This document shows, in pieces, positions 4,646 to 28,825 of a DNA stretch of 34,226 nt; the stretch's first letter is position 1, and the number at the start of each line of letters is the position of its first letter. Origin of the DNA: Janibacter indicus (GTDB lineage: Bacteria > Actinomycetota > Actinomycetes > Actinomycetales > Dermatophilaceae); contig NZ_FWXN01000016.1 in assembly GCF_900176385.1 (NCBI RefSeq), positions 1 through 34,226 on the forward strand, written 5' to 3'. The translations under genes and the position numbers were made by a program. The notes under the pieces were generated by a model. The model ran no database searches and had not been told where the DNA came from. It was given only the letters and a program-made list of their open reading frames with translations.

Positions 4646-4657
4646 CCCCGCATCCCT

Positions 4658-7123: not shown

Positions 7124-7278
7124 CAGGCCGCCTTGGGGCGCTTGAGGTAGGCCACGAGGTTGCCCCCGTCGCCCTGCAGGACCTGGACGAGCTCCCAGCC
7201 GTCCTCGCCCCACTGGTCGAGGATCTGCTTGGTCGCGTGGACGATGAGCGGCACGGTGACGTACTCCCACTGGGTCAT
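7123..7278 (-). CDS. DUF4177 small protein
   Basis: This 51-aa protein begins MTQWEYVTVPLIVHATKQIL and ends VAYLKRPKAA. The central DQWGEDGWELVQVL is the hallmark of DUF4177, whose members are small and usually made of strand-helix-strand. The ATG at 7278 is the first gene of the minus-strand operon, and the stop overlaps the RidA ATG by one base. The matching tiny gene lies at the same place in mycobacteria (annotated Rv3678A, from memory). Function is unknown. It shares a short divergent interval of 29 bp with the ArsA-like gene pair. Confidence 0.85.
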   Translation of the reverse strand: MTQWEYVTVPLIVHATKQILDQWGEDGWELVQVLQGDGGNLVAYLKRPKAA

Positions 7279-7294
7279 GTCGGCACCCTACTCG

Positions 7295-7300
7295 TAGACT
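7295..7300 (+). promoter_or_regulatory. Candidate -10 box for a leaderless ArsA-like transcript
   Basis: TAGACT ends 7 nt before the GTG start codon at 7308, so initiation would fall on or next to the start codon and no Shine-Dalgarno is present. This is the arrangement of leaderless mRNAs, which are frequent in actinobacteria. A matching -35 is not convincing. Confidence 0.35.
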
Positions 7301-7307
7301 TACGGGC

Positions 7308-8303: not shown

Positions 8304-9451
8304 TGGCGAAGGACACCGGCCTCGACCTGGACGCCGTCATCGGGGACCCCGAGCGGAGGATCATCGTCTGCTGCGGGTCCGGCGGGGTCGGCAAGACGAC
8401 GACCGCCGCCGCACTCGCGGTCCGCGCCGCGGAGCAGGGCCGCCGGGTCGTCGTGCTGACCATCGACCCCGCGCGTCGGCTGGCCCAGTCGCTCGGGCTC
8501 GACGAGCTCGACAACACCCCGCGCCCGGTCACCGACATCGACACCTCCGCCGGCGGTTCGCTCGACGCGATGATGCTCGACATGAAGCGCACCTTCGACG
8601 AGGTCGTCGAGGCGCACGCGGCCCCGGACAAGGCCGCCCAGATCCTCGCCAACCCCTTCTACATCGCCGTGTCGAGCTCCTTCGCCGGGACGCAGGAGTA
8701 CATGGCCATGGAAAAGCTCGGGCAGCTGAGGGGGCAGATGGCCGAGGGCACGCAGGACTGGGACCTCGTCGTCGTCGACACCCCGCCGTCGCGGTCGGCC
8801 CTGGACTTCCTCGACGCACCCAAGCGCCTCGGGTCCTTCCTCGACGGCCGCTTCATCCGTCTGCTCTCCGCCCCGGCCAAGGTCGGCGGGCGGGCCTCGC
8901 TCAAGGTCTTCAGCGCGGGGGTCTCGCTGGCGAGCGGGATCATGACCAAGCTGCTCGGCGGCGAGTTCCTCCGCGACGTGCAGACCTTCGTCGCGGCGAT
9001 GGACACGATGTTCGGCGGCTTCCGCCAGCGCGCCGACCAGACCTATGCCCTCCTCTCGCGGCCCGAGACCGCCTTCGTCGTCGTCGCCGCCCCCGAGCGC
9101 GATGCGATGCGCGAGGCGGGATTCTTCATCGAGCGCCTGGCGAGCGACCGGATGCCGCTGGCCGGCGTCCTCGTCAACCGCGTGCACACCACGGCCGCCA
9201 AGCAGCTGAGCGCCGGCCGCGCCGAGGACGCCGCCGCGGCCCTCGACGAGCTCGGCGGCCACGAGCTGGCCGCCTCGCTCCTGCGGGTGCACGTCGAGGT
9301 CGCCGAGACCGCCGCACGGCACCGGGCGATGATCACCCGCTTCCGCACCTCGCACCCGGGCGTCCCGACGGCCGCGGTACCGGCCCAGCCCCTCGACATC
9401 CACGACCTCGACGGGCTGCGGGCGATCGGCAGCGCACTCGGCGGGCGCTGA
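8303..9451 (+). CDS. ArsA/Get3-like ATPase, second subunit with altered signature lysine
   Basis: This 382-aa partner ATPase overlaps the first by one base (TGATG). Its Walker A is CGSGGVGKTTTAAA: the catalytic P-loop Lys is kept, but the signature lysine two residues after the first Gly (GKGG in the partner) is Ser. VLTIDPARRLAQSLG and VDTPPSRSALDFL are typical of the ArsA branch. The C-terminal half contains FMMDM-like helices and VNRVHTTAAKQL, the adenine-binding region. A heterodimer in which one site is regulatory is a reasonable inference from the residue difference. The cellular substrate is unknown. Confidence 0.9.
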   Translation: MAKDTGLDLDAVIGDPERRIIVCCGSGGVGKTTTAAALAVRAAEQGRRVVVLTIDPARRLAQSLGLDELDNTPRPVTDIDTSAGGSLDAMMLDMKRTFDEVVEAHAAPDKAAQILANPFYIAVSSSFAGTQEYMAMEKLGQLRGQMAEGTQDWDLVVVDTPPSRSALDFLDAPKRLGSFLDGRFIRLLSAPAKVGGRASLKVFSAGVSLASGIMTKLLGGEFLRDVQTFVAAMDTMFGGFRQRADQTYALLSRPETAFVVVAAPERDAMREAGFFIERLASDRMPLAGVLVNRVHTTAAKQLSAGRAEDAAAALDELGGHELAASLLRVHVEVAETAARHRAMITRFRTSHPGVPTAAVPAQPLDIHDLDGLRAIGSALGGR

Positions 9452-9525
9452 CCCCCTTCGTCGGCCGTCGCCATCCCCGCGCGGGCTCCCCCGGACGCAC
9501 AGGTTGCCCGGTTACCCTGTGCCGC

Positions 9526-12093
<2,568 letters not shown>

Positions 12094-12101
12094 CCCATGA
12101 C

Positions 12102-12143
12102 CGAAGGGGGGAGGTCACCGGCGACGGTGACCTCCCCCCTTCG
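12102..12143. terminator. Bidirectional 18-bp hairpin terminator
   Basis: A perfect inverted repeat (CGAAGGGGGGAGGTCACC at 12102-12119, complement at 12126-12143) has a 6-nt loop. It lies between convergent ponA2 and the yqeY-like gene, ending 9 bp after the ponA2 stop and 16 bp before the other stop. The base is again CGAAGGG; there is no T-run. Confidence 0.9.
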
Positions 12144-12159
12144 TCATGTGCTGGCCGGG

Positions 12160-12618
12160 TCAGCCCGCCAGACGCGCCTTGACCTTGGCAGCGATGGCCC
12201 CGCCATCGGCACGGCCGGCGGCCTCGGCCTGCGCGGCCTTCATCACCTGACCCATCTGGGCCATCGACGTCGCGCCGACCTGCTCGATGGCGCGGTCGAC
12301 GATCGCGGTGAGCTCGTCGTCGCCGAGCTGGGCCGGCAGGTAGGTCTCGAGGACCGCGAGCTCGGCCTCCTCGCGCTCGGCCAGCTCGGGGCGGCCGGCG
12401 TCGCGGTAGGCGGTGGCCGACTCCTTGCGCTTCTTGGCCTCCTTGGCCACGACCTTGAGCGTCTCGTCGTCGCTGAGCTCGCGCGCCGACTCGCCCGACA
12501 CCTCGGCATTGCTGATCCCCGTGAGCACCATGCGCAGGGTGGCGACGCGCACCTGCTCGCGGGCCCGCATCGCGGTGTGGAGGTCGTGCTGGAGGGTGGC
12601 CTTGAGGGTGTCGGTCAT
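12160..12618 (-). CDS. GatB/YqeY-domain protein
   Basis: This 152-aa protein of the YqeY family is related to the C-terminal tRNA-binding domain of GatB. It starts MTDTLKATLQHDLHTAMRAR. ISNAEVSGESARELSDDETL and RPELAEREEAELAVLETYLP are characteristic, and the tail MGQVMKAAQAEAAGRADGG is the YqeY conserved end. I chose the ATG at 12618 over the in-frame ATG at 12645 because homology starts there and the extra residues are atypical. The biochemical role of free-standing YqeY proteins is not established. It is divergent from the metallophosphoesterase, with a perfect inverted repeat in between. Confidence 0.92.
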   Translation of the reverse strand: MTDTLKATLQHDLHTAMRAREQVRVATLRMVLTGISNAEVSGESARELSDDETLKVVAKEAKKRKESATAYRDAGRPELAEREEAELAVLETYLPAQLGDDELTAIVDRAIEQVGATSMAQMGQVMKAAQAEAAGRADGGAIAAKVKARLAG

Positions 12619-12637
12619 GACTCGATTGTGGCAGCAC

Positions 12638-12674
12638 GGGCACATCTGCTCGATCGCTTTGCCAAGATGTGCCC
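12638..12674. promoter_or_regulatory. 10-bp inverted repeat in a divergent promoter region
   Basis: GGGCACATCT (12638-12647) and AGATGTGCCC (12665-12674) are perfect complements 17 bp apart, in the 57-bp gap between the divergent yqeY-like and metallophosphoesterase genes. This is the geometry of a dimeric-repressor operator. It ends immediately before the GTG at 12676 and swallows the alternative ATG at 12667. Confidence 0.5.
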
Positions 12675-12675
12675 C

Positions 12676-13614
12676 GTGACCACCACTTCCGTGACGCGCG
12701 TCGTGGCCGGGACGGCCGCGGCCGGTGCTGCCGCGCTCGCATGGGGCGTGCTCGTCGAGCCGCGCCTGTTCACCCTGCGGCGCTTCACCGTGCCGGTACT
12801 ACCCGCTGACGCCCTGCCGGTGCGGATCCTGCAGGTGAGCGACATCCACATGGTGCCGGGGCAGCAGGCCAAGACGGAGTGGATCCGGGGGCTGGCCGCG
12901 CTCGAGCCGGACCTCGTGGTCAACACCGGCGACAACCTCAGCCACCTCGAGGCGGTGCCGGCGGCCCTCGACGCCCTCGCGCCGCTGCTCGAGCGGCCCG
13001 GCGTCTTCGTCATGGGGTCCAACGACTACCACGCCCCCGTGCCCAAGAACCCGGCCCGCTACCTGACCAAGGACCACGCCAAGGTCGTCGGTTCGCGGGT
13101 GGAGCTGCCGACCGAGGAGCTGCGCGAGGGCATGGCCTCGCGGGGCTGGGTCGACCTCGACAACGCCCGCACGAGCCTGACCGTGGCCGGCTCCCGTCTC
13201 GACCTGGTCGGTGTCGACGACCCGCACATCCACCGGGACGACTACGCCGCGGTGGGCGCGCCGGCCGACCCGGCCGCCACGACACTGGGCGTCACCCACG
13301 CTCCCTACCAGCGGGTCCTCGACGCCATGACGGGCGATGGCGCCCGGCTGGTCATCGCCGGGCACACGCACGGCGGCCAGCTCTGCGTGCCGGGCGTGGG
13401 TGCGCTCGTCACCAACTGCGACCTGGACCGCCGCCGGGCGAAGGGGGTCTCCCGCTGGTGGCCGGGTGCCGGCGCCGGCGGCGCAGCTCCCGCCGACGCC
13501 GCCTGGTTGCACGTGTCGGCCGGCCTCGGTGCCTCCCGCTTCGCTCCGGTGCGCTTCGCGTGCCGACCCGAGGCCACCCTGCTCACCCTCGTCCCCGAAG
13601 GGCCTGCCCGATGA
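12676..13614 (+). CDS. Metallophosphoesterase, membrane-anchored
   Basis: The 312-aa protein is of the calcineurin-like phosphoesterase superfamily (YkuE/YaeI-like). It has an N-terminal hydrophobic segment (about residues 5-25) that anchors or exports it. The metal motifs in order are LQVSDIHM (D-x-H), NTGDN (GD), GSNDYH (in place of the usual GNHD/E), a VTHAPY His and IAGHTHGGQ. All five metal-binding blocks are present. Some relatives hydrolyse UDP-diacylglucosamine or phospholipid-linked substrates; the substrate here is unknown. The start may be GTG 12676 (used here) or ATG 12667, which lies inside the inverted repeat. The position matches Rv3683. Its stop overlaps the next ATG. Confidence 0.92.
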   Translation: MTTTSVTRVVAGTAAAGAAALAWGVLVEPRLFTLRRFTVPVLPADALPVRILQVSDIHMVPGQQAKTEWIRGLAALEPDLVVNTGDNLSHLEAVPAALDALAPLLERPGVFVMGSNDYHAPVPKNPARYLTKDHAKVVGSRVELPTEELREGMASRGWVDLDNARTSLTVAGSRLDLVGVDDPHIHRDDYAAVGAPADPAATTLGVTHAPYQRVLDAMTGDGARLVIAGHTHGGQLCVPGVGALVTNCDLDRRRAKGVSRWWPGAGAGGAAPADAAWLHVSAGLGASRFAPVRFACRPEATLLTLVPEGPAR

Positions 13615-14177: not shown

Positions 14178-14251
14178 CGGGGTGTGGCGCAGCTTGGTAG
14201 CGCGCGTCGTTCGGGACGACGAGGCCGCAGGTTCAAATCCTGTCACCCCGA
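14178..14251 (+). tRNA. tRNA-Pro (anticodon CGG)
   Basis: A complete 74-nt cloverleaf can be drawn. The acceptor arm CGGGGTG pairs with CACCCCG, and the D arm contains the AGCTTGGTAG loop. The anticodon stem CGTCG/CGACG holds loop TTCGGGA, placing CGG at positions 34-36 (reads CCG). The T arm contains GGTTCAAATCC. The discriminator is A and CCA is not encoded, so it must be added enzymatically. The accessory region starts immediately downstream, and tRNA 3' ends are common integration targets. No second copy of this 3' end is present in the window. Confidence 0.97.
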
Positions 14252-14256
14252 CCCGC

Positions 14257-15577: not shown

Positions 15578-16225
15578 ATGAGGAAGGTGACCAGCGAGGT
15601 GGGACCACGCTCCAGCGTTTGGGCCCTCATCGCGCTGCCGTTGCTCGGCGTCGGTCTGGGTGCGGTCAACGTCGCGGCCAACTTTGACCTCATCCCAGGC
15701 TCGTACTGGATGGCCAAGGTCGTCGGACGCGAGTGGGGATGGCTCCTCGCGGGGTTCGCCGCCGCGTGGGCCGGGAAGACGTGGAAGTCGTCGCTCGCTC
15801 GGGCTCTGACGTTGCTCGTCCCAGCCGTCGCGACTTACGTGGCCCTCGACGCCGCCATGATCGCCCGCACGATCGACGGCACCATCTCTGGTCCCGGTCT
15901 GGTCCTCGTCGAAGGCATCTTCTGGGAGGTTGCCGCGATCGTCGCGGCCGCGGGCCTGGCTGCAGTCCGTCGTCTGATCTCCGTAGACGGCCTTGTCGGG
16001 ATGGCGGCCACAGCCGCGCTCCCCACCTACATCGCCTACTCCGCCTGGACCGCTCGACGCAATGCCGTGCGGGCGGGAAACGATGACCCGGCCCTCATCG
16101 ACGTGACGAATGTTCTGCTGCCCGCGGCGCTCATCGTGGGCGCCGTCGCCACATTGGCCCGGGTGATGACGCAGCAGTCCAGCCAGCGCAAATCGCCAGG
16201 AGCCGATGTCTCCATGGACGCGTGA
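15578..16225 (+). CDS. Multi-pass membrane protein of unknown function
   Basis: This 215-aa protein has about five or six hydrophobic segments (approximately residues 14-36, 53-68, 72-95, 105-130, 135-155 and 178-198), separated by short charged loops such as AGKTWKSSLAR and YSAWTARRNAVRAGN. The C-terminus is polar. No family is recognised. The gene ends 69 bp before the left inverted end of the IS21-type element, so it may originally have had other neighbours. The start at the ATG 15578 is tentative; GTG at 15587 follows a GAGGAAG sequence but too closely. Confidence 0.6.
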   Translation: MRKVTSEVGPRSSVWALIALPLLGVGLGAVNVAANFDLIPGSYWMAKVVGREWGWLLAGFAAAWAGKTWKSSLARALTLLVPAVATYVALDAAMIARTIDGTISGPGLVLVEGIFWEVAAIVAAAGLAAVRRLISVDGLVGMAATAALPTYIAYSAWTARRNAVRAGNDDPALIDVTNVLLPAALIVGAVATLARVMTQQSSQRKSPGADVSMDA

Positions 16226-16293
16226 CCCTGTTCCCAGGCCCTTACGGCCCTTCGTGACTGACGTCGGCTGTCGGGCCCACTTGGCACTGGCTT

Positions 16294-16386
16294 CGGAGGT
16301 TTCGTCCGACACCGTTTGTAGGTGGGTTCTGACACCGCTGAGACGTGGTCTGGGCCGGCGATGGTGGTCTCCGCCGACACCGCCGC
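16294..16386. repeat. Left IS21 end with three GACACCG repeats
   Basis: The terminal inverted repeat is 16294-16319. GACACCG recurs at 16308, 16331 and 16376 in the same orientation. The first copy, GACACCGTTTG, differs by one base from the reverse complement of the right-end repeat CAAGCGGTGTC. The second, TGACACCGCT (16330-16339), is a perfect complement of the inner right-end copy. Confidence 0.7.
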
Positions 16387-16406
16387 TTCGCGCGCCTGAG
16401 CTGCGG

Positions 16407-17186
16407 TCAGGTCGTGCGCTGCTTTGCGGCTTGGGCCAGGCGGTAGGAGTCGGTGCCGGTCTCGAGGATGGTGCCGCCGAAGGTGAGACGGTCAACGATG
16501 GCAGCGCAGAGTCTGGGGTCGGTGAAGGTCTTGGTCCAGCCGCCGAAGGACTCGTTGGACGCGATCGCGACAGAGGCCTTCTCCTCGCGCTCGGTGAGGA
16601 CCTGGAACAACAGCTCGGCTCCGCGCCGGTCGAGTTGCATGTAGCCGAGTTCGTCGATGCACAGCAGGTCGACGCGACCGTAGCGGGCGATGGTCTTGGC
16701 GAGCGTCATCTCGTCGGCAGCCTCGACGAGCTCGTTGGCGAGTTGGGTCGCAAGGGTGTACTTGACCCGGTAGCCGGCCATGGCGGCCTCGGTGCCGAGG
16801 GCGATCAGCAGATGAGATTTGCCGGTGCCGGAGTCGCCGATGAGGCACAGCGGCTGGCCCTTCTGGACCCATTCGCACTTGGCGAGGGTGTGGATCACGG
16901 CGGGGTCGAGATTGGGGTTGGCGTCGAAGTCGAAGGCCCGCAGCGACTTCTCGCGCGGGAACTTGGCGGCCTTGATCCGACGCTCGGACCGGCGTCTGGC
17001 GCGATCGTCGCACTCGGCGAGCAGCACTTCGGCAAGGAACCCGCGGTAGGACATCTGCTCATGCCCGGCCCGGTCGGCGTAGTCGGCGAAGGAGTTGCGG
17101 ATGGTGGGCATCCGCAGCATCCGGCAGGCCTGGTCGATCGCGGCGTCGGCTGCTTCCTCTGTCATCCCTCGGCGCTTGGTGGTCAT
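16407..17186 (-). CDS. istB: IS21 helper ATPase IstB
   Basis: This is a 259-aa AAA+ (DnaA/DnaC-like) ATPase that assists IstA in transposition and target selection. Walker A is GDSGTGKSHLL (about residue 118). Walker B is LLCIDELGYM. Sensor motifs are IASNESFGGW and IVDRLTFGGTILET. The length is normal and no lesion is visible. The ATG at 17186 overlaps the istA stop (ATGA), the usual coupling in this family. The stop lies about 110 bp from the left terminal repeat, normal for the istB side of an IS21 element. Confidence 0.95.
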   Translation of the reverse strand: MTTKRRGMTEEAADAAIDQACRMLRMPTIRNSFADYADRAGHEQMSYRGFLAEVLLAECDDRARRRSERRIKAAKFPREKSLRAFDFDANPNLDPAVIHTLAKCEWVQKGQPLCLIGDSGTGKSHLLIALGTEAAMAGYRVKYTLATQLANELVEAADEMTLAKTIARYGRVDLLCIDELGYMQLDRRGAELLFQVLTEREEKASVAIASNESFGGWTKTFTDPRLCAAIVDRLTFGGTILETGTDSYRLAQAAKQRTT

Positions 17187-18865
17187 GGTGCGGCTCCTTC
17201 GTTCGGCGGGTCACGGCGGCTGGCCAGCAGTTGGTCGTACTTGTCCACGCTCGGCAGCGGCCGAGTGTCGGCCGGGATGTGGGCGCGAAGCCGGCGCTCG
17301 GTCAGCGATCGCACGGCAGGGGTCTCGCCTTCACCGTGTGCCGTGTCGCTGCCCATCAAGGGGGTCGGGTGGTGTGCTGTCGTGTCGTCGGCTTCGCCAT
17401 CTGCCGTCTCGTTGCGCTTGCGCGCTTCCAGTGCGACAGCGTCGGCCGTGAGCGCGCCTGCACGCAGCGCTGTCGCGAGCCCGGCGACGACGTGTTCGTG
17501 TGGAAGGTGTCGGTGCAGCATCAGGACCTCGATCAGGGCCCGGGTGCCGTCGGCGTCGCCGTTCGCCTTGCAGGCCGCGGCCCACCAGGCGTCGTGAACG
17601 GGAGTGAAGCTCCCTGATGCCCTGGCCTGTTCCAGCGCTGTCGCGCCGGGTAGTGCGCCGGGTTTGCGGAGGAGGACCTCGAGGTAGTGATCCAGGTCGA
17701 CCCGGGTCGCGCCCTTGGTCATCAGCCGCTCATGGCGGGCGATCTCGGTCTTGCCGTCGAACACAACCAGGTCACTGGCGTTGAGCAGCACCCGGGCTTG
17801 ACGGCCGGCCATGCGCGCGGGGACAGAGTACTTGTTCATCCTGACCGAGACCTGCGCGTAGCGGTCCACGCGTGGGTTGAACCAGCGGCCGGTCTCGAAC
17901 GGCTCGTTGGGCAGTGGCGCGAGGAGTGGCTGCTCGGTGGCGAAGTGTTCCCCGACAGTGCGGGCCCGCGACCCGATCCGCCGAGTGTCGTCGGCTTCGT
18001 CCCAGGCGTCGACCAAAGTGTTGAGCTCGGCGAGGGAGTCGACTTCGGGGATGGGGACCAGGTGGTTGCGACGGAACCACCCGATCTGCCCCTCGACGCC
18101 GCCTTTCTCGTGCGCCCCTTGGATGCCGGGCTGGCAATAGAAGGCCTCGATGCCGTAGTGAGACCGGAACGCGGTCCACCGGTCGGCTTCGACCCGTTGA
18201 CGGGAGAACCCGATCACGCTGGCGACTGCGGCCTTGAGGTTGTCGTAGCGGATCTTCCCGGTCGGGACGCCCCCGAGGACCCGGAACGCGTGCGCGTGCC
18301 CTTCGAAGAAGGCTTCTTGCCCGGCGGACGCACTGATCCTGTGTGCGGCCTTGCCGGAGTAGGAGAGTCGCAGGCTGAACAGGGTGCAGGTGACGAGTTC
18401 GCCGCGCAGGCGGATCGCGACCTCGCCGAAGTCGACCTCGGCCTCGCGGCCGGGCAGGTGCTCTTGCGGGATGAACGTGTTCGTGGGTTCCCGACCCGCT
18501 TCGATCCGGATCTCGCGGCGTCGGGTGGCGACGTACTCGCGCACCATCCAGTACGACACATCGGTGGCGTGGCGTTCATCCAGTAGCCGGTCGAAGATCC
18601 GCTTGGCGGTGTGCCGCTGCTTGCGGGGCGCGTCCAGGTCTGCGCGCAGCCAGTCGTCGATGGCGTCTCGGTACTGGTCCAGTCGTGAGCCCCGCTTCGG
18701 GGGTGGCTTCCGCTCCTTGGGCCAGGCCGACTCCAGCGCGGCGACCACGGTCCGGTACCCCACGCCGTGCTTGCGCTGCAGGGCGCGGTTGGACATCCCG
18801 GCGCGGACATCGCGCCGGATTGCGGAGTACAGGTCGACCCTGGACCTACCCGCCGGCACGGACAC
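17183..18865 (-). CDS. istA: IS21 transposase IstA
   Basis: This is a 560-aa DDE transposase. N-terminal helix-turn-helix regions (SNRALQRKHGVGYRTVVAAL) bind the terminal repeats. The integrase core carries the first Asp in REAEVDFGEVAI, the second in IRYDNLKAAV and the Glu in HEKGGVEGQIGWF; the C-terminal beta-barrel contains VSVRMNKYSVPARM. All catalytic residues are intact. The start is GTG at 18865, because an in-frame stop lies nine codons upstream and no other start is available. It begins only 24 bp after the stop of tetR on the same strand with no room for an independent IS end and little for a promoter, so co-transcription from the tetR promoter is likely. Confidence 0.95.
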   Translation of the reverse strand: MSVPAGRSRVDLYSAIRRDVRAGMSNRALQRKHGVGYRTVVAALESAWPKERKPPPKRGSRLDQYRDAIDDWLRADLDAPRKQRHTAKRIFDRLLDERHATDVSYWMVREYVATRRREIRIEAGREPTNTFIPQEHLPGREAEVDFGEVAIRLRGELVTCTLFSLRLSYSGKAAHRISASAGQEAFFEGHAHAFRVLGGVPTGKIRYDNLKAAVASVIGFSRQRVEADRWTAFRSHYGIEAFYCQPGIQGAHEKGGVEGQIGWFRRNHLVPIPEVDSLAELNTLVDAWDEADDTRRIGSRARTVGEHFATEQPLLAPLPNEPFETGRWFNPRVDRYAQVSVRMNKYSVPARMAGRQARVLLNASDLVVFDGKTEIARHERLMTKGATRVDLDHYLEVLLRKPGALPGATALEQARASGSFTPVHDAWWAAACKANGDADGTRALIEVLMLHRHLPHEHVVAGLATALRAGALTADAVALEARKRNETADGEADDTTAHHPTPLMGSDTAHGEGETPAVRSLTERRLRAHIPADTRPLPSVDKYDQLLASRRDPPNEGAAP

Positions 18866-18889
18866 GCCCGTCTTGGGTCGGGCCGGAGG

Positions 18890-19660
18890 TCATCGGCCAT
18901 TGCCGGAGGTTGGTGTGCCGAGGCATTTTGCGATGCCGTCGAGAATCAGGCCGACACCACGCCGGTAGGCACCTTCGGGGTCGTTGGCTTTGCCGGTCTG
19001 TTCTCCGAGGGTGCGTGAGACGCGCGAGGCGGTCGGGAACCGGGTCTGGTCGCCGATCGCGGTGGTCAGGGCCGGTTCGATGTTCGACCACCAGTCGGTG
19101 TCGTGGTCTTCGCCCGGCAGCCTGGAGTCTTGGGCGGCGCGTGTGGCGCGGGCTGTTCCCTGCACCAACGAGAGCAGGGCGGTGAGGGTGTGCTCCATCT
19201 CGACGTCGGTGAGCCCGATTCCGTCCAGGGCGCGCAACTCGGTCTCGTACTTCGTTGAGGCCCCTGGTCCGGGGACTGGGCGTCCGGCGGCGAGGTCGGT
19301 GATCCAGGGATGGGCTTGGCAACTCGCCCAGTTCGCTTCGGCGATCGCGGTGACGCGTTCCCGCCAGTCCGCGCCCTCGGGGATCGTGACGGCCTCGTAG
19401 GTCACGCCCGCGACGTGATCGAGCATGAGCTCGATGAGTTCGGCCCGGCCACCGATGTGTGGATACAGCGCCATCGCGGTGACCCCTGCTTCCTCGGCCA
19501 GTCGCCGGATTGTCACGGCGTCCAGGCCCTCTCTGTCGGCGAGGTCGACTGCCAGTGCGGTGACGCTTTGGGTGCTGATCCCGCTGCGTGGGCTCACCGG
19601 CGAGTCACGCCAGAGCAGTCCGATCAGCTTGAACTCGTCCACGCCTGTGCGCTTGGCCAT
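18890..19660 (-). CDS. TetR-family repressor of the DrrABC-like operon
   Basis: The 256-aa protein has an N-terminal extension of about 28 residues, then a TetR HTH (VTIRRLAEEAGVTAMALYPHIGG, with the ALYPHI recognition helix). A C-terminal ligand-binding/dimerisation domain of the TetR_C type follows (MEHTLTALLSLVQGTARA). It is divergent from the ABC operon, with 61 bp between starts, the classical layout for a drug-sensing repressor controlling its efflux genes and itself. The ATG at 19660 follows an AGGAGG-like site (RC of CCTCCTC). Downstream is istA at 24 bp. The inducer is unknown; drug or toxic lipid is inferred from the target genes. Confidence 0.9.
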   Translation of the reverse strand: MAKRTGVDEFKLIGLLWRDSPVSPRSGISTQSVTALAVDLADREGLDAVTIRRLAEEAGVTAMALYPHIGGRAELIELMLDHVAGVTYEAVTIPEGADWRERVTAIAEANWASCQAHPWITDLAAGRPVPGPGASTKYETELRALDGIGLTDVEMEHTLTALLSLVQGTARATRAAQDSRLPGEDHDTDWWSNIEPALTTAIGDQTRFPTASRVSRTLGEQTGKANDPEGAYRRGVGLILDGIAKCLGTPTSGNGR

Positions 19661-19678
19661 CTCTGTCCTCCTCGAACT

Positions 19679-19703
19679 GTACGTTGTAGAATACACTGTA
19701 GAA
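19679..19703. promoter_or_regulatory. Candidate TetR operator and divergent promoters
   Basis: The interval contains two overlapping palindromes, TGTA-GAA-TACA (19685-19695) and TACA-C-TGTA (19692-19700). It also has the direct repeat TGTAGAA at 19685 and 19697. The A+T content is high for this DNA, and TAGAAT/TACACT (plus strand) and TATTCT (minus strand) are possible -10 boxes. Repressor binding here would shut off both transcription units. Confidence 0.6.
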
Positions 19704-19721
19704 CGCGACGAGAGGAACAGC

Positions 19722-20504
19722 ATGGATGTCGAGATGAGCCCACCCGGTTCGATCCGGGTCGAGGCGGTGCGCAAGACCTTCCCGAAGCGGGACAAACCCG
19801 CGTTGACCCGGGTCGATCTGCGCGTCGACTCCGGCCGGGTGTGCGCACTGCTGGGGGCCAATGGTGCCGGCAAAACGACCCTGGTGCGGATTCTGACGAC
19901 GCTGACGGGCAAGGACTCCGGCACTGTGAGCGTCAATGGCTGGGACGTGGACCGCGATCCTGCACGGGTACGGGCATCGATCGGCGTCGTGGGGCAGTAT
20001 GCCGCCCTCGACGAGGTGCTCTCAGCCAGGGAAAACCTGGAACTGTTTGCCCGGCTGATCGGGCTCTCACGTACCGCGGCCCGGTCGCGGGCAGCCACGC
20101 TCCTGGAGCAGGCGGGCCTGAGCGAGCACGGCGGGCAGAAGGTATCCGGGTTCTCCGGTGGCATGCGACGTCGCCTGGACCTCGTGACCTCGATGATCAC
20201 CCGTCCCGCCGTGCTCCTCATCGATGAGCCGACCACGGGCCTCGATCCGATCGCCCGTCGCACGATCTGGAACACGGTGCGCTCGTTGGTGGACGAGGGT
20301 ACTACCGTCCTGTTGACCACGCAGTACCTGGAGGAGGCCGACGAATTGGCCGATGACGTCGTGATCCTGCGCGAGGGTTCCGTGGTCGCCACCGGTGCCC
20401 CATCGGACTTGAAAACGCTCGTGGGAGAGCCACGGATGGAACTGCGCGAACCCTCCCTCGAAGACGTCTACCTGCATCTACATCGAGGGGGCGACGCAGC
20501 ATGA
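19722..20504 (+). CDS. ABC transporter ATPase, DrrA-type
   Basis: This 260-aa nucleotide-binding subunit belongs to the daunorubicin-resistance DrrA type. It has Walker A GANGAGKTT (about residues 44-52), the Q-loop in VVGQYAALDE, signature FSGGMRRRLDL and Walker B LLIDEPTTGLDP. The H-loop position is TTQYLEEADEL; Gln in place of His is usual in DrrA relatives. The C-terminal EPSLEDVYLHL motif is the DrrA-type regulatory tail, although the protein is shorter than typical DrrA (about 300-330 aa). An AGAGG ribosome-binding site precedes the ATG at 19722. It overlaps the permease gene by 4 bp. Confidence 0.93.
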   Translation: MDVEMSPPGSIRVEAVRKTFPKRDKPALTRVDLRVDSGRVCALLGANGAGKTTLVRILTTLTGKDSGTVSVNGWDVDRDPARVRASIGVVGQYAALDEVLSARENLELFARLIGLSRTAARSRAATLLEQAGLSEHGGQKVSGFSGGMRRRLDLVTSMITRPAVLLIDEPTTGLDPIARRTIWNTVRSLVDEGTTVLLTTQYLEEADELADDVVILREGSVVATGAPSDLKTLVGEPRMELREPSLEDVYLHLHRGGDAA

Positions 20505-21313
20505 GCGCCACGACGATCGAGCACCACGCTCCGGCCACGGGCAGCATTCTGCGCGAGGCCGTCATCCTGACCGGCCGCGCGATGCGGCACTGGCGGGCGC
20601 GACCGGTCACGTTCAGCATCCAACTGCTGTTCCCCGTCTTGGTCATGCTGCTCATGGGCGGCCTGCTCGGCGGGGCGATCGCCGGCACCACAGGCGACTA
20701 CATCGTCTTCGTCGTGCCGGGCATTCTCGCCTTCACCGTGCTATCGGGAATCGAGACGACGATCACCGCTGTCACCGGAGACGCTGCCAAGACCGTCACC
20801 GACCGGTTCCGCACACTGCCCATCTCCCGCGGTTCGGTGCTGCTGGGACGGGTCTTCGCTGACATGCTCACTGCCGCCGTGGAACTCGCGGTCGTCACCA
20901 CCGCAGGACTGCTGCTCGGCTGGCGTCCCGAAGGGGGCCTCGCCGATGTTGTGCTCGCCTACGTCCTGCTGCTGTGGCTGAGGTTCGGACTGCTGTGGGT
21001 CGGCGTCTGGATCGGGTTGAAGGCAGGCACACCAGAGGCGGCCACGACCGCCCAGCTTGCGATCTGGCCGGTGGCGTTCCTCTCGACTGTGTTCGTCGAT
21101 CCGCGCACGATGCCGGCCTGGCTCGGAGTCGTCGCCGAATGGAACCCCCTGTCGGCGACCGCATCCGCGGCGCGTGAACTGTTCTCGGGCACCGACCTCA
21201 CCGGGGTTACCTTCGTCGCCGACCACGCTGTGCTCTTCGCCATTGGCTGGCCGCTCGCGCTGACACTGGCGTTCGTGCCCCTCGCTATTCGCGCCTACCG
21301 GAGGCTGTCATGA
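20501..21313 (+). CDS. ABC-2 permease, DrrB-type
   Basis: The 270-aa membrane subunit has six hydrophobic segments (about residues 40-60, 72-92, 120-140, 150-172, 180-200 and 240-262). It also has the DrrB/NodJ-type motifs FPVLVMLLMGGLLGG, YIVFVVPGILAF and DRFRTLPISRGSVLLGR, plus ARELF near the C-terminus. With the ATPase it should form a drug or lipid exporter in the cytoplasmic membrane. ATGA overlaps join it to both neighbours, so all three cargo proteins come from one message. Confidence 0.93.
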   Translation: MSATTIEHHAPATGSILREAVILTGRAMRHWRARPVTFSIQLLFPVLVMLLMGGLLGGAIAGTTGDYIVFVVPGILAFTVLSGIETTITAVTGDAAKTVTDRFRTLPISRGSVLLGRVFADMLTAAVELAVVTTAGLLLGWRPEGGLADVVLAYVLLLWLRFGLLWVGVWIGLKAGTPEAATTAQLAIWPVAFLSTVFVDPRTMPAWLGVVAEWNPLSATASAARELFSGTDLTGVTFVADHAVLFAIGWPLALTLAFVPLAIRAYRRLS

Positions 21314-23580
21314 CGACCACGACCCACGATGTGATCCGCGTGCGCGGAGCCCGCCAGAACTCACTCCAAGACATCGACGTCGACGTCCCCAAGCATCAGC
21401 TCGTTGTCGTCACCGGCGTCTCCGGCTCAGGCAAGTCCTCGCTGGTGTTCGACACTATCGCCGCCGAGTCGGCGCGCCAGCTCAACGAGACGTTCTCGGC
21501 GTTTGCCCAAGGCCGGCTGCCCAGCTACGCCCACCCCGACGTCGACCTGTTGGAGAACCTCTCGGCCGTCATCGTGGTCGACCAGCAGCGCCTGACCGGC
21601 GGACCACGCTCCACGGTCGGGACCATCAGCGACATCGGCGCACGCCTGCGGCTGTTGTTCTCGCGGATCGGTCAGCCAGCGGCCGGCTACTCCAACGCCT
21701 ACAGCTTCAACGACCCCGCGGGCATGTGCCCGAACTGCCAGGGGCTCGGCGTCGCAGCCTCGGTCGTGGAATCCGAGCTCGTCGACGACGACCGATCCCT
21801 CAACGAGGGCGCGATCACCTTCCCCAAGTTCAACCCGGGCACCTGGCTGTGGAAGGCCTACGCCAAGGCCGGGTTCTTCGACCCGGACATGAAGATCCGT
21901 GACTACACCTCCGAGGAACGCGAGCTGTTCCTCCATGCACCAGCCGGGGAACACACCCTGCCAGCTGGGATGGATGCGGTCGGCACCGCCTACGAAGGCC
22001 TCGTCACCCGATTCAACCGGATCTACCTCCAGCGCGAACCCGACTCGTTCAAAGGCAAGCAGCGAGAGGCGTTCGAGCGGATCGTGTCGCGTGGCCCTTG
22101 CCCCGAATGCCACGGCTCCCGACTCGCCGCGCCCGCCCGTGCCAGCCTGATCGACGGCAAGTCGATCGCCGACCTCAACGCGATGCAGATCAGCGACCTC
22201 GCCGAGCGCGTCGCCGAGGTTGACGGTGTCGGCGTGGCACCGCTGGTCGCGAACCTGCGCGTCCACCTGGAACGGATGATGACCCTCGGTCTCGGTTACC
22301 TCAGCCTCGACCGGGCCACGTCCACCCTCTCGGGAGGTGAGGCCCAACGGATCAAGATGGTCCGCCATCTCGGCAGCGCCTTGGCCGACATGCTCTACGT
22401 GTTCGACGAACCCACCGTGGGCCTGCATCCCCGCGACGTCGCCGCGCTCGGAAAGATGCTCGAAGCTCTGCGTGACCGCGGCAATACCGTGCTCGTGGTC
22501 GAGCACGATCCGGACATCATGGCCATCGCCGACCACATCATCGACCTCGGACCCGCCGCCGGAACCTCCGGCGGCCAGATCGTCTACCAAGGCGACTACG
22601 ACGGCCTCACCCAGGCCGACACCCCTACCGGGCACGGACTCCGCGAGCACCGGCGCGCGACCCGGACGCGGCGTGAACCCGACGGCTGGATCAGCATCGA
22701 CGATGCCACCACCAACAACCTCCAGGACGTCTCCACCCGCGTCCCGCGCGGCGTGATGACCGCAGTGACCGGAGTCGCCGGATCGGGCAAGTCCAGCCTG
22801 ATCCTCGGCAACCTCCCCGCCGTCGAGCCCGACGCGATCGTCATCGACCAACGCCCCATCCGGGGATCGCGCCGCTCCAACCCAGCCACCTACACCGGCC
22901 TGCTCAACCTGATCCGTGATGTGTTTGCCAAGACCACCGGAGCACCTGCCGGGCTGTTCACCCCCAACTCCACCGGAGGATGCCCGGCCTGTGAGGGCAA
23001 CGGCATCATCTACACCGACCTCGCCTTCATGGAAGGCGTGATCACCCGCTGCGAAGTTTGCGAAGGACGACGGTTCACCCCACAAGCCCAAGAACATCAC
23101 GTCGCCGGCAAGACCATCGCCGACGTGTTCGAGATGAGCGTTACCGACGCGCTGGACTACTTCACCCAGCCCGCCATCAGGCTCATCCTGTCCCGGCTCC
23201 ACGACGTCGGCCTCGACTACCTCACCCTCGGACAGACCCTCACCAGCCTCTCCGGCGGCGAACGTCAGCGACTCAAACTCGCCACCGAACTCGGAACCCC
23301 CGGCCGCACGATCATCCTGGACGAGCCGACCACGGGACTGCACATCGCCGATATCTCACGGCTCATCGGGCTGCTCGACCGGCTCATCGACGCCGGATCG
23401 ACGCCCATCGTGATTGAGCACAACCTCGACATCATCGCCGCCGCCGACTGGATCATCGACATCGGCCCCGAAGCCGGACACGAGGGCGGACAAGTCGTCT
23501 TCGAGGGCACACCAGACCAGATGATCACGGACGGCGGGACCCACACGGCCGAACACCTACGAGCTCACGCGAAAAACTGA
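21310..23580 (+). CDS. UvrA-like drug resistance protein, DrrC-type
   Basis: This 756-aa twin-ABC protein is related to excinuclease UvrA but about 200 residues shorter, lacking the UvrB-interacting domain. It has Walker A GVSGSGKSSLV and GVAGSGKSSLI, signatures LSGGEAQRIKM and LSGGERQRLKL, and Walker B VFDEPTVGLHP and ILDEPTTGLHI. Zinc-binding CxxC pairs are CPNCQG, CPECHG, CPACEG and CEVCEG. This is the architecture of DrrC (daunorubicin resistance) and related UvrA2 proteins, thought to release or displace DNA-intercalating drugs. Its coupling to a DrrAB exporter strongly suggests resistance to an anthracycline-like or other DNA-binding compound. No lesion is visible. Confidence 0.92.
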   Translation: MTTTTHDVIRVRGARQNSLQDIDVDVPKHQLVVVTGVSGSGKSSLVFDTIAAESARQLNETFSAFAQGRLPSYAHPDVDLLENLSAVIVVDQQRLTGGPRSTVGTISDIGARLRLLFSRIGQPAAGYSNAYSFNDPAGMCPNCQGLGVAASVVESELVDDDRSLNEGAITFPKFNPGTWLWKAYAKAGFFDPDMKIRDYTSEERELFLHAPAGEHTLPAGMDAVGTAYEGLVTRFNRIYLQREPDSFKGKQREAFERIVSRGPCPECHGSRLAAPARASLIDGKSIADLNAMQISDLAERVAEVDGVGVAPLVANLRVHLERMMTLGLGYLSLDRATSTLSGGEAQRIKMVRHLGSALADMLYVFDEPTVGLHPRDVAALGKMLEALRDRGNTVLVVEHDPDIMAIADHIIDLGPAAGTSGGQIVYQGDYDGLTQADTPTGHGLREHRRATRTRREPDGWISIDDATTNNLQDVSTRVPRGVMTAVTGVAGSGKSSLILGNLPAVEPDAIVIDQRPIRGSRRSNPATYTGLLNLIRDVFAKTTGAPAGLFTPNSTGGCPACEGNGIIYTDLAFMEGVITRCEVCEGRRFTPQAQEHHVAGKTIADVFEMSVTDALDYFTQPAIRLILSRLHDVGLDYLTLGQTLTSLSGGERQRLKLATELGTPGRTIILDEPTTGLHIADISRLIGLLDRLIDAGSTPIVIEHNLDIIAAADWIIDIGPEAGHEGGQVVFEGTPDQMITDGGTHTAEHLRAHAKN

Positions 23581-23680
23581 CACGGTAAGGCCAGCCGCAC
23601 TGCCTGGCTCCGGCCTGTCCTCACCACCGATTCACCGACGTCCAAGACAGACGATCTGGAGCCGGTCCACAGCTCGAGAT

Positions 23681-23770
23681 CAAGCGGTGTCAACTCTGGC
23701 CGACACCCTCCCAAGCCATAGCCGGGTGGTGCTGGCTCTGGGCGACAAGCGGTGTCGGATGAGACCCCCG
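23681..23770. repeat. Right IS21 end with paired CAAGCGGTGTC repeats
   Basis: The 11-mer CAAGCGGTGTC occurs perfectly at 23681-23691 and 23746-23756, 65 bp apart. The outer copy lies in the terminal inverted repeat 23745-23770. An extra GACACCC in opposite orientation lies at 23702. From the stop of the UvrA-like gene (23580) to the end there is no other gene. Confidence 0.7.
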
Positions 23771-24540
23771 TAGCCACCAAGCGACTCACTGACCGCCTCA
23801 CCGCGGTCTTTGACCGACTCACAACATGCGGGGCCGCTGTCATCGGCCTCAGCGAAGCCGGTCAGGTAGTCCAGCCGGCGATTCGTGAGTTCGCCCGTTC
23901 GAATGGCTATACCACCATTGCCGGAGGTGGCCTGAGCGCGCGCAAGGGCGTCTCCCTGCTGGTCCACGACTCTCTCAAGGCTTCTGACGTCTCCGTGAGC
24001 GACGAACTCCGCTCTGACAACAAGATCGTCGGCCAGTGGGTCGGGATGGTCGTCGAAGGACTGTGCGCGGAACCGATCCTCGTCGCTTCGGTCTACAACT
24101 ACTGCCACCATCGGGCCGGCTTGGCCGACTCAGTCGCCGCGGCCGCACACCAGGTGAGCGCCGGCGCTGTGATCGCAGGTGGAGACTGGAACTTTTCGCG
24201 CACATGCGACGGCACCCCCGAGGGAAATGGCTGTGGCACTCCGGCGTTCCAGCGCCTTGAACGAGAACTCGGCTTGGTCAACGTGCTGCCCGTGGGCCCA
24301 GCGGGACGCCCTCGCGAGACGCCGTCCTGGCCCACGCACTCAGGTTCCAGCATTCCCCGCATGCCGCGGCAGCTCGATCAGGTCTTTGCAGACGCCGAGA
24401 CAGCGAGGCACCTATCAGTCTCCGTGGACGGGAGCAACTTGCGCCATCACGGCAAGTATCTGTCCGATCACGCCATCTTGGCGGCCAGCATCATCCCGGA
24501 TGGCCTCACCCCTTCGCGCGGAACATCGCCCGGACGATGA
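23752..24540 (+). pseudogene. 5'-truncated endonuclease/exonuclease/phosphatase-fold gene
   Basis: The frame encodes part of an EEP-superfamily protein: VIGLSEAG carries the metal-binding Glu, GGDWNFSRTCDG the Asp/Asn pair, and LSDHAIL the terminal Asp-His. The usual first strand with its catalytic Asn (a W-N-x-R/H type motif) is missing. The frame's first ~8 codons are the outer end of the IS21-type element; recognisable protein begins near 23785. The missing N-terminus is not found at the left end of the element, so insertion was accompanied by a deletion or the gene was already broken. The 3' end overlaps the convergent zinc-motif gene by 35 bp. Confidence 0.6.
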
Positions 24541-25688: not shown

Positions 25689-25863
25689 AAGGCGGCCTCC
25701 GACAATGCAAGAGGTGTGTCGGGACTGGAGTCAATGAAACTTGCTAGGTAGGCGCGACGCGATGCGGGACACGTTGATGGTCACGGATCCGGTCGCGGTC
25801 GGTTGACGTTTTCGTTCACGTCGGTGGCTAGGCTCTGGCCATCGTCGTCAGGAGGAAAATCGC

Positions 25864-26139
25864 GTGGCAGTCGGACTCGAGGACTTGCTGGACAAGATCT
25901 GGTTTGGCGCGCAGAACACGGTCGAGAAGGGCTCCTCGTTCGAGCACCTGATCGCGAGCTACCTGCGGACGGCTCCGGAGTTCGCGGACCGGTTCGACAA
26001 CGACCCGAACGACTGGTCGCGCGAGGTCGAGGACCCGCGCTACATCATCGACCTGCTCGCCCGAATCGTCACATTGAGCCTGGAAACGATGAAGATCGTC
26101 GACGCGCTTCCCCCGCTGGCCATCAAGGAGACACAGTGA
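25864..26139 (+). CDS. Small protein resembling joined ends of a DEAD/DEAH restriction helicase
   Basis: The 91-aa frame has an excellent AGGAGG site 8 nt before its GTG. Residues 14-44 (NTVEKGSSFEHLIASYLR, then TAPEFADRF) look like the N-terminal nuclease-like start of very large island-borne DEAD/DEAH helicase or type ISP restriction proteins. Residues 46-85 (DPNDWSREVEDPRYIIDLLA, then RIVTLSLETMKIVDAL) look like the extreme C-terminus of the same proteins. I infer an in-frame internal deletion of more than 1000 residues. These family comparisons are from memory. The stop overlaps the GTG of the Mrr-like gene (GTGA), so the small protein is translationally coupled to it. It may be a relic or a retained small partner. 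Confidence 0.6.
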   Translation: MAVGLEDLLDKIWFGAQNTVEKGSSFEHLIASYLRTAPEFADRFDNDPNDWSREVEDPRYIIDLLARIVTLSLETMKIVDALPPLAIKETQ

Positions 26140-27191
26140 CTGAGCAAGCATGGGTCATCCGTTCTGGTCGCCACGGCGAGCGGGATGTGTGGGCTATGGA
26201 CAACGGCTGGTCCGGCGGAGGATGGACGGAGATTCCCGATCTCACGAATGCCCGGACCCGGGCTGACATCGAAGAGATCGTCGCCGCAACTTTCGGCACG
26301 GAGTCGCCGGGGCTCGTCTCCTCCTACACGGGCCAGCTGTACGCCCTTCGTCATCGCATGGAGGTCGGGGACATCGTGATCATGCCCCGGAAGACGGCCA
26401 AGGATCTCGCCTTCGGGCGCATCACGAGCGCATACACGTACCTGGCAGACGAGGCCGACCCGAACCGACGCCATGTGGTCGGCGTGGACTGGCAGGAGAC
26501 CCTGCCACGCACCGCGGTAAAGCAGGACCTGCTGTACACCCTGGGAGGAGCGACGTCGATCTTCTCGCCGAGTCGCAACAAGGCGGTCCCTCGTCTGGAG
26601 CACCTGATGGTCCACGGCACAGACCCCGGCGCTACCGGCCTGAGCACCGGCACGGCGTCCACGGCGTGGTCTTGGGATCCTTCGGCCCAGGGCGACGCAG
26701 TTGTCGACGAACCGGAGACCACACCCGACATCGTCGAGGTGGCCGCCGACGAGATCGCTACGAAGATTGGTGAGGAGTTCGCCGGACACGACCTCGCCCA
26801 CCTCGTGGCCGTGGTCCTCGAGGCGGAGGGTTTCGAGGTCATTGAGTCGCCGACGGGGGCAGACGGTGGCGTCGACATCCTGGCTGGCCGCGGTCTGCTC
26901 GGACTGGAGTCACCGAAGATCGTCGTCCAAGTCAAGACCCCTCAGGTCGGATCGGAGGTGATCTCCCAACTCACCGGGCTCGTGGCCTCCCAAGGCGCGG
27001 ACTACGGACTGATCGCTACCTGGGCCGGGTTGTCCAAGCCGGCTCGTGACGCCGTCAAGCATCAGCGCTTCAAAATCAAGGTGTGGGAGTCGGCCGACAT
27101 CATCGAGGCCGTCCAGAACAACTACGAGAAGTTGCCGGACGACGTGCGCGTGCGACTGCCGCTGCAGCGGGTGTGGATGCTCGCGCGCTGA
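26136..27191 (+). CDS. Mrr-like type IV restriction endonuclease with N-terminal reader domain
   Basis: The 351-aa protein starts with GTG at 26136, overlapping the upstream stop. The C-terminal domain (about residues 225-320) is a PD-(D/E)xK Mrr catalytic fold: HLVAVVLEAEGFEVIESP, then GADGGVDILAG with the catalytic Asp, and IVVQVKTPQVGSEVISQL with Q-x-K. The N-terminal ~125 residues (AWVIRSGRHGERDVWAMDNG, VGDIVIMPRKTAKDLAFGRI) form a PUA/EVE-like reader expected to recognise modified bases. A linker with acidic residues joins them. A type IV enzyme cuts foreign modified DNA and needs no cognate methylase, which fits its presence without one. Confidence 0.85.
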   Translation: MTEQAWVIRSGRHGERDVWAMDNGWSGGGWTEIPDLTNARTRADIEEIVAATFGTESPGLVSSYTGQLYALRHRMEVGDIVIMPRKTAKDLAFGRITSAYTYLADEADPNRRHVVGVDWQETLPRTAVKQDLLYTLGGATSIFSPSRNKAVPRLEHLMVHGTDPGATGLSTGTASTAWSWDPSAQGDAVVDEPETTPDIVEVAADEIATKIGEEFAGHDLAHLVAVVLEAEGFEVIESPTGADGGVDILAGRGLLGLESPKIVVQVKTPQVGSEVISQLTGLVASQGADYGLIATWAGLSKPARDAVKHQRFKIKVWESADIIEAVQNNYEKLPDDVRVRLPLQRVWMLAR

Positions 27192-27418: not shown

Positions 27419-28270
27419 CTATTGGATTCCGACCAAGGGGTGGTCGGACCGTTGCGTAGCGTAGAACGCTTCCTCGAACTCTGCTGGCGGGACGTCGCCC
27501 AGGTAGCCGTGGAGGCGGTCGTGGTTGTGCCAGTGGACCCAGGACAGGGTGGCGAGCTCGACATCCTCGATACTCTTCCAGGGCCGTCCCTGGCGTGCGG
27601 GGCCGCGGATTAGCTCGGCCTTGTAGTAGCCGTTCACGGTCTCGGCAAGGGCGTTATCGTACGAATCCCCGACGGTGCCGATCGAGGGCACCGCACCGAT
27701 CTCAGCCAGTCGTTCTCCGTAGCGAATCGACGTGAATTGGCTGCCCGCGTCGCTGTGACACCGCAGCCCGTCGAGCTGGGTGCCGCGTGACCACCTGGCC
27801 ATCTCGATGGCGTCGAGGACCATCGTGGTCCTCATGTGCGAGGCGACTCGCCACCCGACGATCGTGCGGGAGTAGGCGTCGATGATGAAGCAGACGTAGG
27901 CGACGCCGGCCCAGGTCGGCACGAAGGTCAGATCTGTGACCCACAACTGGTTCGGCGCGGTGGCGGTGAAGTCGCGGCCCACCAGGTCCGGGTGCCGCGG
28001 CATGCCCGGGTCTGGCGTGGTGGTGCGCACCCGCTTGGTGCGCCGCACGCCCTCGATACCCTCGGCGCGCATCAGCCGGGCGACCTGGTCGCGGCCGATG
28101 TCGTGACCAGAGCGTCGCGCGGCCTTCCAGATCTTCCGTGCCCCGTAGACCCGGTAGTTGGCTTCCCACAGCTGCCGCACCACCGGGCCCATCACCGCGT
28201 CACGTCGGGCACGGGCCGATGGCTGCCGGCTCTTGACCTGGTAGTAGCTGCTGGGGGCCACCTGCAGCAC
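27419..28270 (-). CDS. IS3 transposase OrfB (integrase core)
   Basis: The rve-type DDE domain is complete: WVTDLTFVPTWAGVAYVC (first Asp), GLRCHSDAGSQFTS (second Asp) and SYDNALAETVNGYYKAEL (Glu). The HTH_21 region YRVYGARKIWKAARRSGHDI lies near the N-terminus. The only start inside the frame is the GTG at 28270, but the frame is open further upstream past the OrfA stop (reading AAFIDANRDD). That overlap indicates production of an OrfAB fusion by -1 frameshifting near 28345. It appears intact. Confidence 0.95.
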   Translation of the reverse strand: MLQVAPSSYYQVKSRQPSARARRDAVMGPVVRQLWEANYRVYGARKIWKAARRSGHDIGRDQVARLMRAEGIEGVRRTKRVRTTTPDPGMPRHPDLVGRDFTATAPNQLWVTDLTFVPTWAGVAYVCFIIDAYSRTIVGWRVASHMRTTMVLDAIEMARWSRGTQLDGLRCHSDAGSQFTSIRYGERLAEIGAVPSIGTVGDSYDNALAETVNGYYKAELIRGPARQGRPWKSIEDVELATLSWVHWHNHDRLHGYLGDVPPAEFEEAFYATQRSDHPLVGIQ

Positions 28271-28341
28271 GCTGCAGATGAGCTCGACCCCCAGCCGCCG
28301 ACCCGCGACGACGTCGTCGCGGTTGGCGTCGATGAACGCGG

Positions 28342-28686
28342 CTACTTCTTGTGCTGGCGGTCGAGCTCCGCCCCGAAGAAACTGGCGGCCCTCTTCAAGA
28401 TTTCGTTGGCGCGCTTGAGCTCACGGTTCTCCTGCTCCAGAGCCTTCATCTTCGCCGCGTCACTGGTACTGATGCCCGCGACGTGGCCCTCGTCGATATC
28501 AGCTTGACGGACCCAGGACCGCACCGACTCGGTGCCGTACCCCAACTGCTGGGCGACGCGCTGGACCGTGCCGTGCTCTGTGCCTAGCTCTGCGCGCAGA
28601 GTCCTGACCATCCGCACCGCAGCGGCCTTCTCGTCGGGGCTGTAGCGACGCGTGGTCGGCTTCCCCGGGGTGGTGTCCTTCGGCAT
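28342..28686 (-). CDS. IS3 transposase OrfA (HTH_Tnp_1)
   Basis: The 114-aa protein has an HTH domain RRYSPDEKAAAVRMVRTL and LGYGTESVRSWVRQADIDEG, followed by a leucine-zipper-like helix MKALEQENRELKRANEILKR, which dimerises IS3 transposases. I use the ATG at 28686 (MPKDTTPGKP); an in-frame ATG at 28722 would start only 4 bp inside the inverted repeat. Its stop lies within the open OrfB frame, as needed for -1 frameshifting. No A6G slippery run is present; the overlap reads CACAAGAAGTAG. Confidence 0.92.
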   Translation of the reverse strand: MPKDTTPGKPTTRRYSPDEKAAAVRMVRTLRAELGTEHGTVQRVAQQLGYGTESVRSWVRQADIDEGHVAGISTSDAAKMKALEQENRELKRANEILKRAASFFGAELDRQHKK

Positions 28687-28825
28687 GAGTACATCCTCGT
28701 TTCCAAACGATGGAGACTCCAACCAACCCAGTGCGGTTCATTCTGAAAGAGTTTGGGTAGAAGTGTCCGGGAGGTCCGGGAGTGGCCCCTTCGTGTGCCT
28801 AGTGCTAGTGAACAAGGAGGCCCAC

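Follow-up and report, generated by a model that had tools for sequence, protein, structure and literature searches.

A 7489-bp element of the IS21 type, occupying positions 16288–23776 of a 34,226-nt stretch of Janibacter indicus DNA (contig NZ_FWXN01000016.1, analysed whole and here called the window; contig C24 of a 3.42-Mb genome in 29 contigs), carries a complete resistance-type operon between its transposase gene istA and its right end, and we consider it very probable that the whole is a single, self-mobile unit. Comparison with other genomes indicates that the same block moves as one piece among several Actinomycetota families, mostly with a 6-bp target duplication, and we would accordingly class the window element as an IS21 variant of the passenger-carrying ('tIS') kind that moves as a whole. 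A first-pass annotation made from the letters of the window had placed istBA and the operon inside one pair of inverted ends with matching GACACCG repeats, at 16294–23770; this arrangement holds and the ends are real, but each lies 6 bp further out. The features of the element, in window positions, are these.

16288–23776, strand not applicable: whole IS21-type element, 7489 bp, delimited by its inverted ends, the empty locus in genome G065 and the same block elsewhere
16288–16319, plus strand: left terminal inverted repeat, on the istB side, 32 nt, 84% complementary to the right arm
16308–16382, plus strand: three GACACCG repeats of the left end, at 16308, 16331 and 16376
16407–17186, minus strand: istB, helper ATPase (NCBIfam NF038214, 250.8 bits, cut-off 200)
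17183–18865, minus strand: istA, IS21 transposase (NCBIfam NF033546, 224.5 bits, cut-off 160)
18750–18865, strand not applicable: 5' istA segment from the cargo donor, with the crossover near 18750
18890–19660, minus strand: tetR regulator, 256 amino acids (Pfam TetR_C_1 and TetR_N on 18890–19600; extent from frame and stop)
19679–19701, strand not applicable: candidate TetR operator, an imperfect palindrome, by eye from the printed alignment
19722–20504, plus strand: DrrA-like ABC ATPase, 260 amino acids (TIGR01188, 282.3 bits, below the cut-off of 312.45)
20501–21313, plus strand: DrrB-like ABC-2 permease, 270 amino acids (Pfam ABC2_membrane; TIGR01247, 47.3 bits, cut-off 223.05)
21310–23580, plus strand: UvrA-like protein of the Ecm16/DrrC kind, 756 amino acids (best PDB sequence match 7SH1)
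23685–23756, minus strand: two GACACCG repeats of the right end, at 23685 and 23750
23745–23776, minus strand: right terminal inverted repeat, 32 nt

The two ends are complementary at 27 of 32 positions and tie for the longest pair among the 25 longest, listed of 87 inverted pairs in 15800–24400, where the other 32-nt pair is 72% complementary and some shorter pairs reach 90–94%. At both ends the GACACCG repeats, three on the left and two on the right, point inward. As the motif is not enriched in the window as a whole (16 occurrences against 12.5 expected; at least 16 in 17 of 100 shuffles), only its clustering and orientation at the ends carry weight. The ends start with TG and contain multiple internal repeats, and IstA and IstB both score above their curated cut-offs, as expected of IS21. 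IstA residues D145, D208, E253 and E258, among which we take the catalytic residues to lie, are conserved in 79, 78, 79 and 79 of 79 IstA rows, respectively. The istA gene starts with GTG at 18865 or 18859, and tetR lies upstream on the same strand across a gap of 24 nt, exactly as first annotated. The ABC ATPase, permease and UvrA-like genes run divergently from tetR, on the plus strand, and the cargo operon as a whole fills the interval between istA and the right end.

That the block moves as a unit, as the first-pass annotation had proposed, is borne out by copies elsewhere and by an empty locus in a related genome. A scan of genome contigs for IstA yielded 191 relatives; 80 loci were retained, and end pairs were searched in 45 of these. 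Outside the window, five copies at four sites were found that have both ends and the whole interior in common. Two Rhodococcus strains (loci L054 and L055) hold an identical element of 7473 bp with the same flanks, that is, at one site; copies of 7472 bp each occur in metagenome-assembled genomes of Candidatus Brachybacterium merdavium (L056) and of a member of the Propionibacteriales (L057); and genome G499 (locus L131) holds a 7473-bp copy that is 97.3% identical to L054. All four sites are bounded by target duplications of 6 or 8 bp: TCGGAC in L054/L055, CCCATGGC (8 bp) in L056, CCGACC in L057 and ATCGCC in L131. When the flanks of the G499 insertion are joined, they match an unbroken stretch in G548, G309 and G551, which represents the empty site (47 family genomes searched, four matched including G499 itself; junction aligned for G309 and G548). 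The L056 and L057 elements are identical at 7468 of 7472 positions yet lie at different sites, which argues for recent movement.

Across the order, three of 354 scored genomes matched the block at 1e-200, the window included (396 searched, 42 unscored); besides G499, this search yielded part of the UvrA-like gene, 957 bp long, in G191. In a family search of 186 genomes, no second full block was present among the matches listed; G184, G034 and G183 have the same istBA and left end with other cargo. The window's own genome gave one full-length match, the window itself. In PLSDB, a cargo query matched five records, each with coverage of 5% or less, and a whole-block query matched 64, none with 80% coverage, the best being istBA only (30%); three of the 64 exceeded 90% identity at their best place, and the one of these three among the 60 matches listed was about 100 bases long.

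The window locus itself is present without the element in G065, a same-genus draft (79% complete), where flanks 87% and 93% identical to those of the window stand 49 bp apart. These 49 bp, which include the start of a gene of the endonuclease/exonuclease/phosphatase family that continues at 23752–24540 in the window, are absent from the window. Over the wider clade of related elements, 12 of the 17 rows tested (11 sites, since L054 and L055 share one) have target duplications, 6 bp long except for the 8 bp of L056. For L058 and for the outer of two end pairs in L041, the script chose an 8-bp reading shifted by 2, with a 6-bp reading at the exact ends; a further duplication, ACCGTC, was seen by eye in L061, beyond the 12 rows. 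Some observations weigh against mobility as a unit. Comparison of the flanks gave no duplication for the window copy, so that the 4–8 bp duplication typical of IS21 is seen in the clade and not in this copy, and the same holds for four other rows of the 17 (L075, where five of six positions match, the inner L041 pair, L042 and L043). In addition, L056 and L057 are metagenome bins, and their host names are therefore uncertain. Insertions of the IS21-family element ISPve1 with adjacent deletions are mentioned in PMC9330008; by analogy, we propose that a deletion adjoining the insertion may have caused the 49-bp loss in the window.

Two other origins for the arrangement were weighed. A plain IS21 might lie by chance beside a chromosomal tetR–drr operon, its right 'end' being a chance repeat, and genome G088 (L044) does contain relatives of tetR and the UvrA-like gene (76–83% identity), divergently arranged, without istBA, ABC genes or matching ends. 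This pair offers a hint of how the operon may have been assembled. The five copies at four other sites, with both ends and the whole interior in common, the target duplications that bound them and the existence of empty sites speak against chance proximity, which we regard as very improbable; the copies bounded by target duplications refute it. Resistance operons are often moved as composite transposons, and the operon could by that precedent be bracketed by two IS copies. The block, however, contains one istBA with no second copy at its right end, and no second istBA match was listed in a search of the window's genome; with no two flanking IS copies, this origin is refuted by the sequence and is the least credible of those considered. 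Passengers enclosed by one IS end pair and found as a unit at different sites are what defines a tIS, and the copies described above show both.

IS21 elements are about 2–2.6 kb long, are usually described without passengers, have TG..CA ends and short target duplications (4–8 bp), and serve as a model for AAA+-assisted transposition. The window element shares with the IS21 family, including IS21 and IS5376, istA and istB in one operon and inverted ends made of several repeats (PMC10122671), but differs in its 7.5-kb length, in the cargo between istA and the right end and in the mostly 6-bp duplications of its relatives. Insertion sequences with unrelated passenger genes are known as tIS, with IS1, IS1595 and one IS6 member named; the window element resembles these in carrying such genes, whereas the accessible parts of those sources do not list IS21 among the tIS families (PMC8496243, PMC7986276). 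Among the titles and abstract openings listed in searches of the open-access literature, none describes an IS21 element that includes passenger genes. Tn7-like transposons and IS21 both combine a DDE transposase with an AAA+ partner. Tn7-like transposons also have modular cargo (PMC8649781); by contrast, the window element uses IS21 IstA/IstB, and no targeting gene was recognised among the genes annotated.

Judged by its identity profile, the window copy is a recombinant that unites an istBA backbone like that of hydrolase-carrying elements with Rhodococcus-type cargo, the two meeting at a sharp crossover within istA, near position 18750. Relative to L054-type copies, it is 76% identical in the left end, 89% in istB and 85% over most of istA, versus 98% in tetR, 97–98% in the ABC genes and 94% in the UvrA-like gene; in the right end (23581–23776), 196 of 196 bases are identical to L054 and L131. 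The change is abrupt, with 190/249 bases identical to L054 in 18501–18749 and 116/116 in 18750–18865 (Fisher p 7e-20 for 190/249 versus 249/249). The Dietzia locus L047 shows the reverse, at 84% identity in the left end, 91–94% in istBA up to 18749, and 226/249 in 18501–18749 followed by 70/89. In the IstA tree, from which L060, L075, L102, L120 and L121 (internal stops or gaps), G184 and G034 were left out, the window groups with L047 and G183 (support 100/91), while the five other drr-carrying rows form a separate set (100/100). The co-inheritance of IstA and cargo that had been suggested as a check is thus not strict: the five other drr-carrying IstA stay together, and the window copy has the IstA of another backbone. 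The reciprocal jump in identity and the tree together point to an exchange of backbone and cargo by crossover in the 5' part of istA, which would have joined the left end, istB and most of istA to the cargo and right end of another element. As controls, L054 and L131 are identical at 2317/2328 positions (99.5%) in 16407–18749 and 4643/4831 (96.1%) in 18750–23580, and L054 and L056 are 98.3% and 94.9% identical in the same intervals. These pairs show no step like that of the window and a smaller opposite one, with the cargo more diverged than istBA, which may reflect further exchange.

The cargo slot of this IS21 clade is also exchangeable, as the gene content of its members shows. A right-end motif near istA (115–180 nt before it) was found at none of 18 loci with IstA at least 77% identical to that of the window and at 45 of 62 others, the remaining 17 of these more distant loci showing no near right end by motif count. 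This count over all 80 loci replaced an ungapped right-end comparison, whose scores were at shuffle level at most loci. The 'cargo' and 'plain' labels of the tree had been assigned from IstA identity (77% or more versus 73% or less), so that the single-change tree statistic is partly circular and not independent. The cargo is placed upstream of istA and, at loci with an identified right end, within that end. In six of the 18 close relatives (L047, L048, L049, L053, L059 and L102) the sequence as far as the contig start contains no convincing far right end; L059 offers a weak candidate at 827 (20/28) with no duplication in the printed flanks.

Eight cargo types were seen, that of the window included. 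Alpha/beta hydrolases and a DUF1697 protein (a marginal Pfam match) make up the cargo of L047 (in part), G183 and G184, and DUF488, a Rid-family protein and a WYL regulator that of G034; L050–L053, L058 and L102 carry genes for a PadR regulator, an ABC ATPase, an ABC permease, a DoxX-like protein and a hydrolase (Pfam run for L053, the others assigned by likeness of open reading frames), and the contig of L048 begins at the ATPase gene of this type. The remaining types are a PEP-synthase-like protein (L059), an ArsR regulator with an AHSA1 protein and an ABC pair (L061), a hydrolase (L065), and DUF1761 with an HxlR regulator on a plasmid of Rhodococcus sp. 2G (L127, whose element ends are weak, 22/28). 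For each of the eight types, the gene closest to istA runs on the strand of istA; in most the two genes abut, and in L065 about 66 nt lie between them.

Several of these relatives are of interest in themselves. L041 of G184 (2251–12543) is a 10.3-kb element with two tandem right ends, the inner at 7039 and the outer at 2251, and a 6-bp repeat borders the outer end pair. In this element, genes of the G034-type DUF488/Rid/WYL cargo accompany the hydrolase cargo, possibly a snapshot of cargo stacking. A repetitive open reading frame (L041, 6602–7072) adjoins its inner right end. L043 of G183 (3647–13144) has an istB into which a second IS21-type element (istB at 5864–6679) is inserted. L060 and L075 are 5.08-kb PadR-type versions without ABC genes and with a broken istA, the duplication being intact in L060, and L051 and L102 contain the PadR regulator gene twice (by likeness of open reading frames).

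The operon had been called DrrABC-type, a description that for the ABC pair applies, on profile scores, at the superfamily level, since neither the DrrA nor the DrrB curated cut-off was reached (scores listed above). Its 'drrC-like' gene encodes the UvrA-like protein, whose best PDB sequence match is 7SH1 (Ecm16; 820.6 bits), followed by a canonical UvrA at 565.9. The match covers residues 4–752 in two stretches; residue 130 aligns to position 269 of NF001503, with about 139 fewer positions before it. According to PMC10192343, Ecm16 confers resistance to a DNA-intercalating drug and is without the UvrB-binding domain, DrrC is its 51% relative and protects against daunorubicin or doxorubicin, and the two are the confirmed resistance proteins of their group. 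The window protein is likewise a UvrA relative without that domain, but it lies on a transposable element, whereas known Ecm16/DrrC-type proteins sit in the antibiotic gene clusters of producers (PMC10413001). Going by their families, the ABC pair would export a compound and the UvrA-like protein would act on DNA holding an intercalating drug. Ratios of nonsynonymous to synonymous substitution (dN/dS) between copies, at 0.11–0.13 for the UvrA-like gene, 0.12–0.19 for the ATPase and 0.11–0.21 for the permease, are low, as for genes kept functional; for tetR, dN/dS was about 0.3, 0.5 and 0.7 in three pairs with few changes, which lends no support to purifying selection on this gene. The cargo might instead sense and export an endogenous compound, with no part in drug resistance. 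The sub-threshold DrrA and DrrB scores would suit such a role, but the closeness of the UvrA-like protein to Ecm16, one of the two confirmed resistance proteins, makes it unlikely in our view.

The layout suggests, in addition, a link between cargo and transposition. Since istA follows tetR on one strand after 24 nt, transposase expression may be under the control of TetR. As is usual in its family, TetR would bind the short divergent region and an inducer would release it; in the alignment, the palindrome in the 61-bp tetR–exporter intergenic region is, by eye, near-perfect in L056 and L057. By their arrangement tetR, istA and istB would form one transcript under TetR control, and a compound that induces the exporter may then also raise transposase levels. 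Such co-transcription is the least certain step of the explanation. Extended to the clade, this yields a model that we put forward tentatively, as a possible one: a modular family of cargo transposons in which the transposase genes tail a regulated cargo operon, an inducer triggers transposition and crossovers in the 5' part of istA swap the cargo.

Other findings count against this coupling. The spacing between cargo and istA is about 300 nt in the PadR type and about 100 nt in L127, and inspection by eye showed no clear ribosome-binding site for istA. A consensus scan of 18600–19800, tetR region included, which says little in such GC-rich DNA, found neither a sigma-70-like promoter nor a terminator; with a promoter found neither in tetR nor before it, the case for co-transcription is the layout itself. 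We give an even chance to the alternative that the unit is mobile while istAB are driven by their own promoter inside tetR or are expressed at a very low level, TetR playing no role. Constitutive transposase expression at a low level is a common trait of IS elements, and the weak start context of istA (by eye) fits this alternative; the consensus scan, with a promoter at neither place, does not discriminate between it and the coupled arrangement. What speaks for coupling is the 24-nt, same-strand placement of istA behind tetR and the shared strand of the nearest cargo gene in all eight types.

An IS21 clade with swappable cargo of regulators and exporter- or detoxification-type genes would open a path along which producer-type resistance to intercalators could pass from one family of Actinomycetota to another. 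If the cargo regulator does set the transposase level, drug-responsive transposition would be directly testable in a one-operon system.

Elsewhere in the window, a tRNA-Pro gene lies at 14178–14253, to the right of which the GC content drops from about 0.72 to 0.66; G065 nevertheless matches both sides. To the right of the element, the protein encoded by 25803–27191 contains an Mrr-type restriction endonuclease domain, and 27419–28722 (minus strand) encodes an integrase-core protein and a helix-turn-helix transposase, resembling an IS3-type pair.

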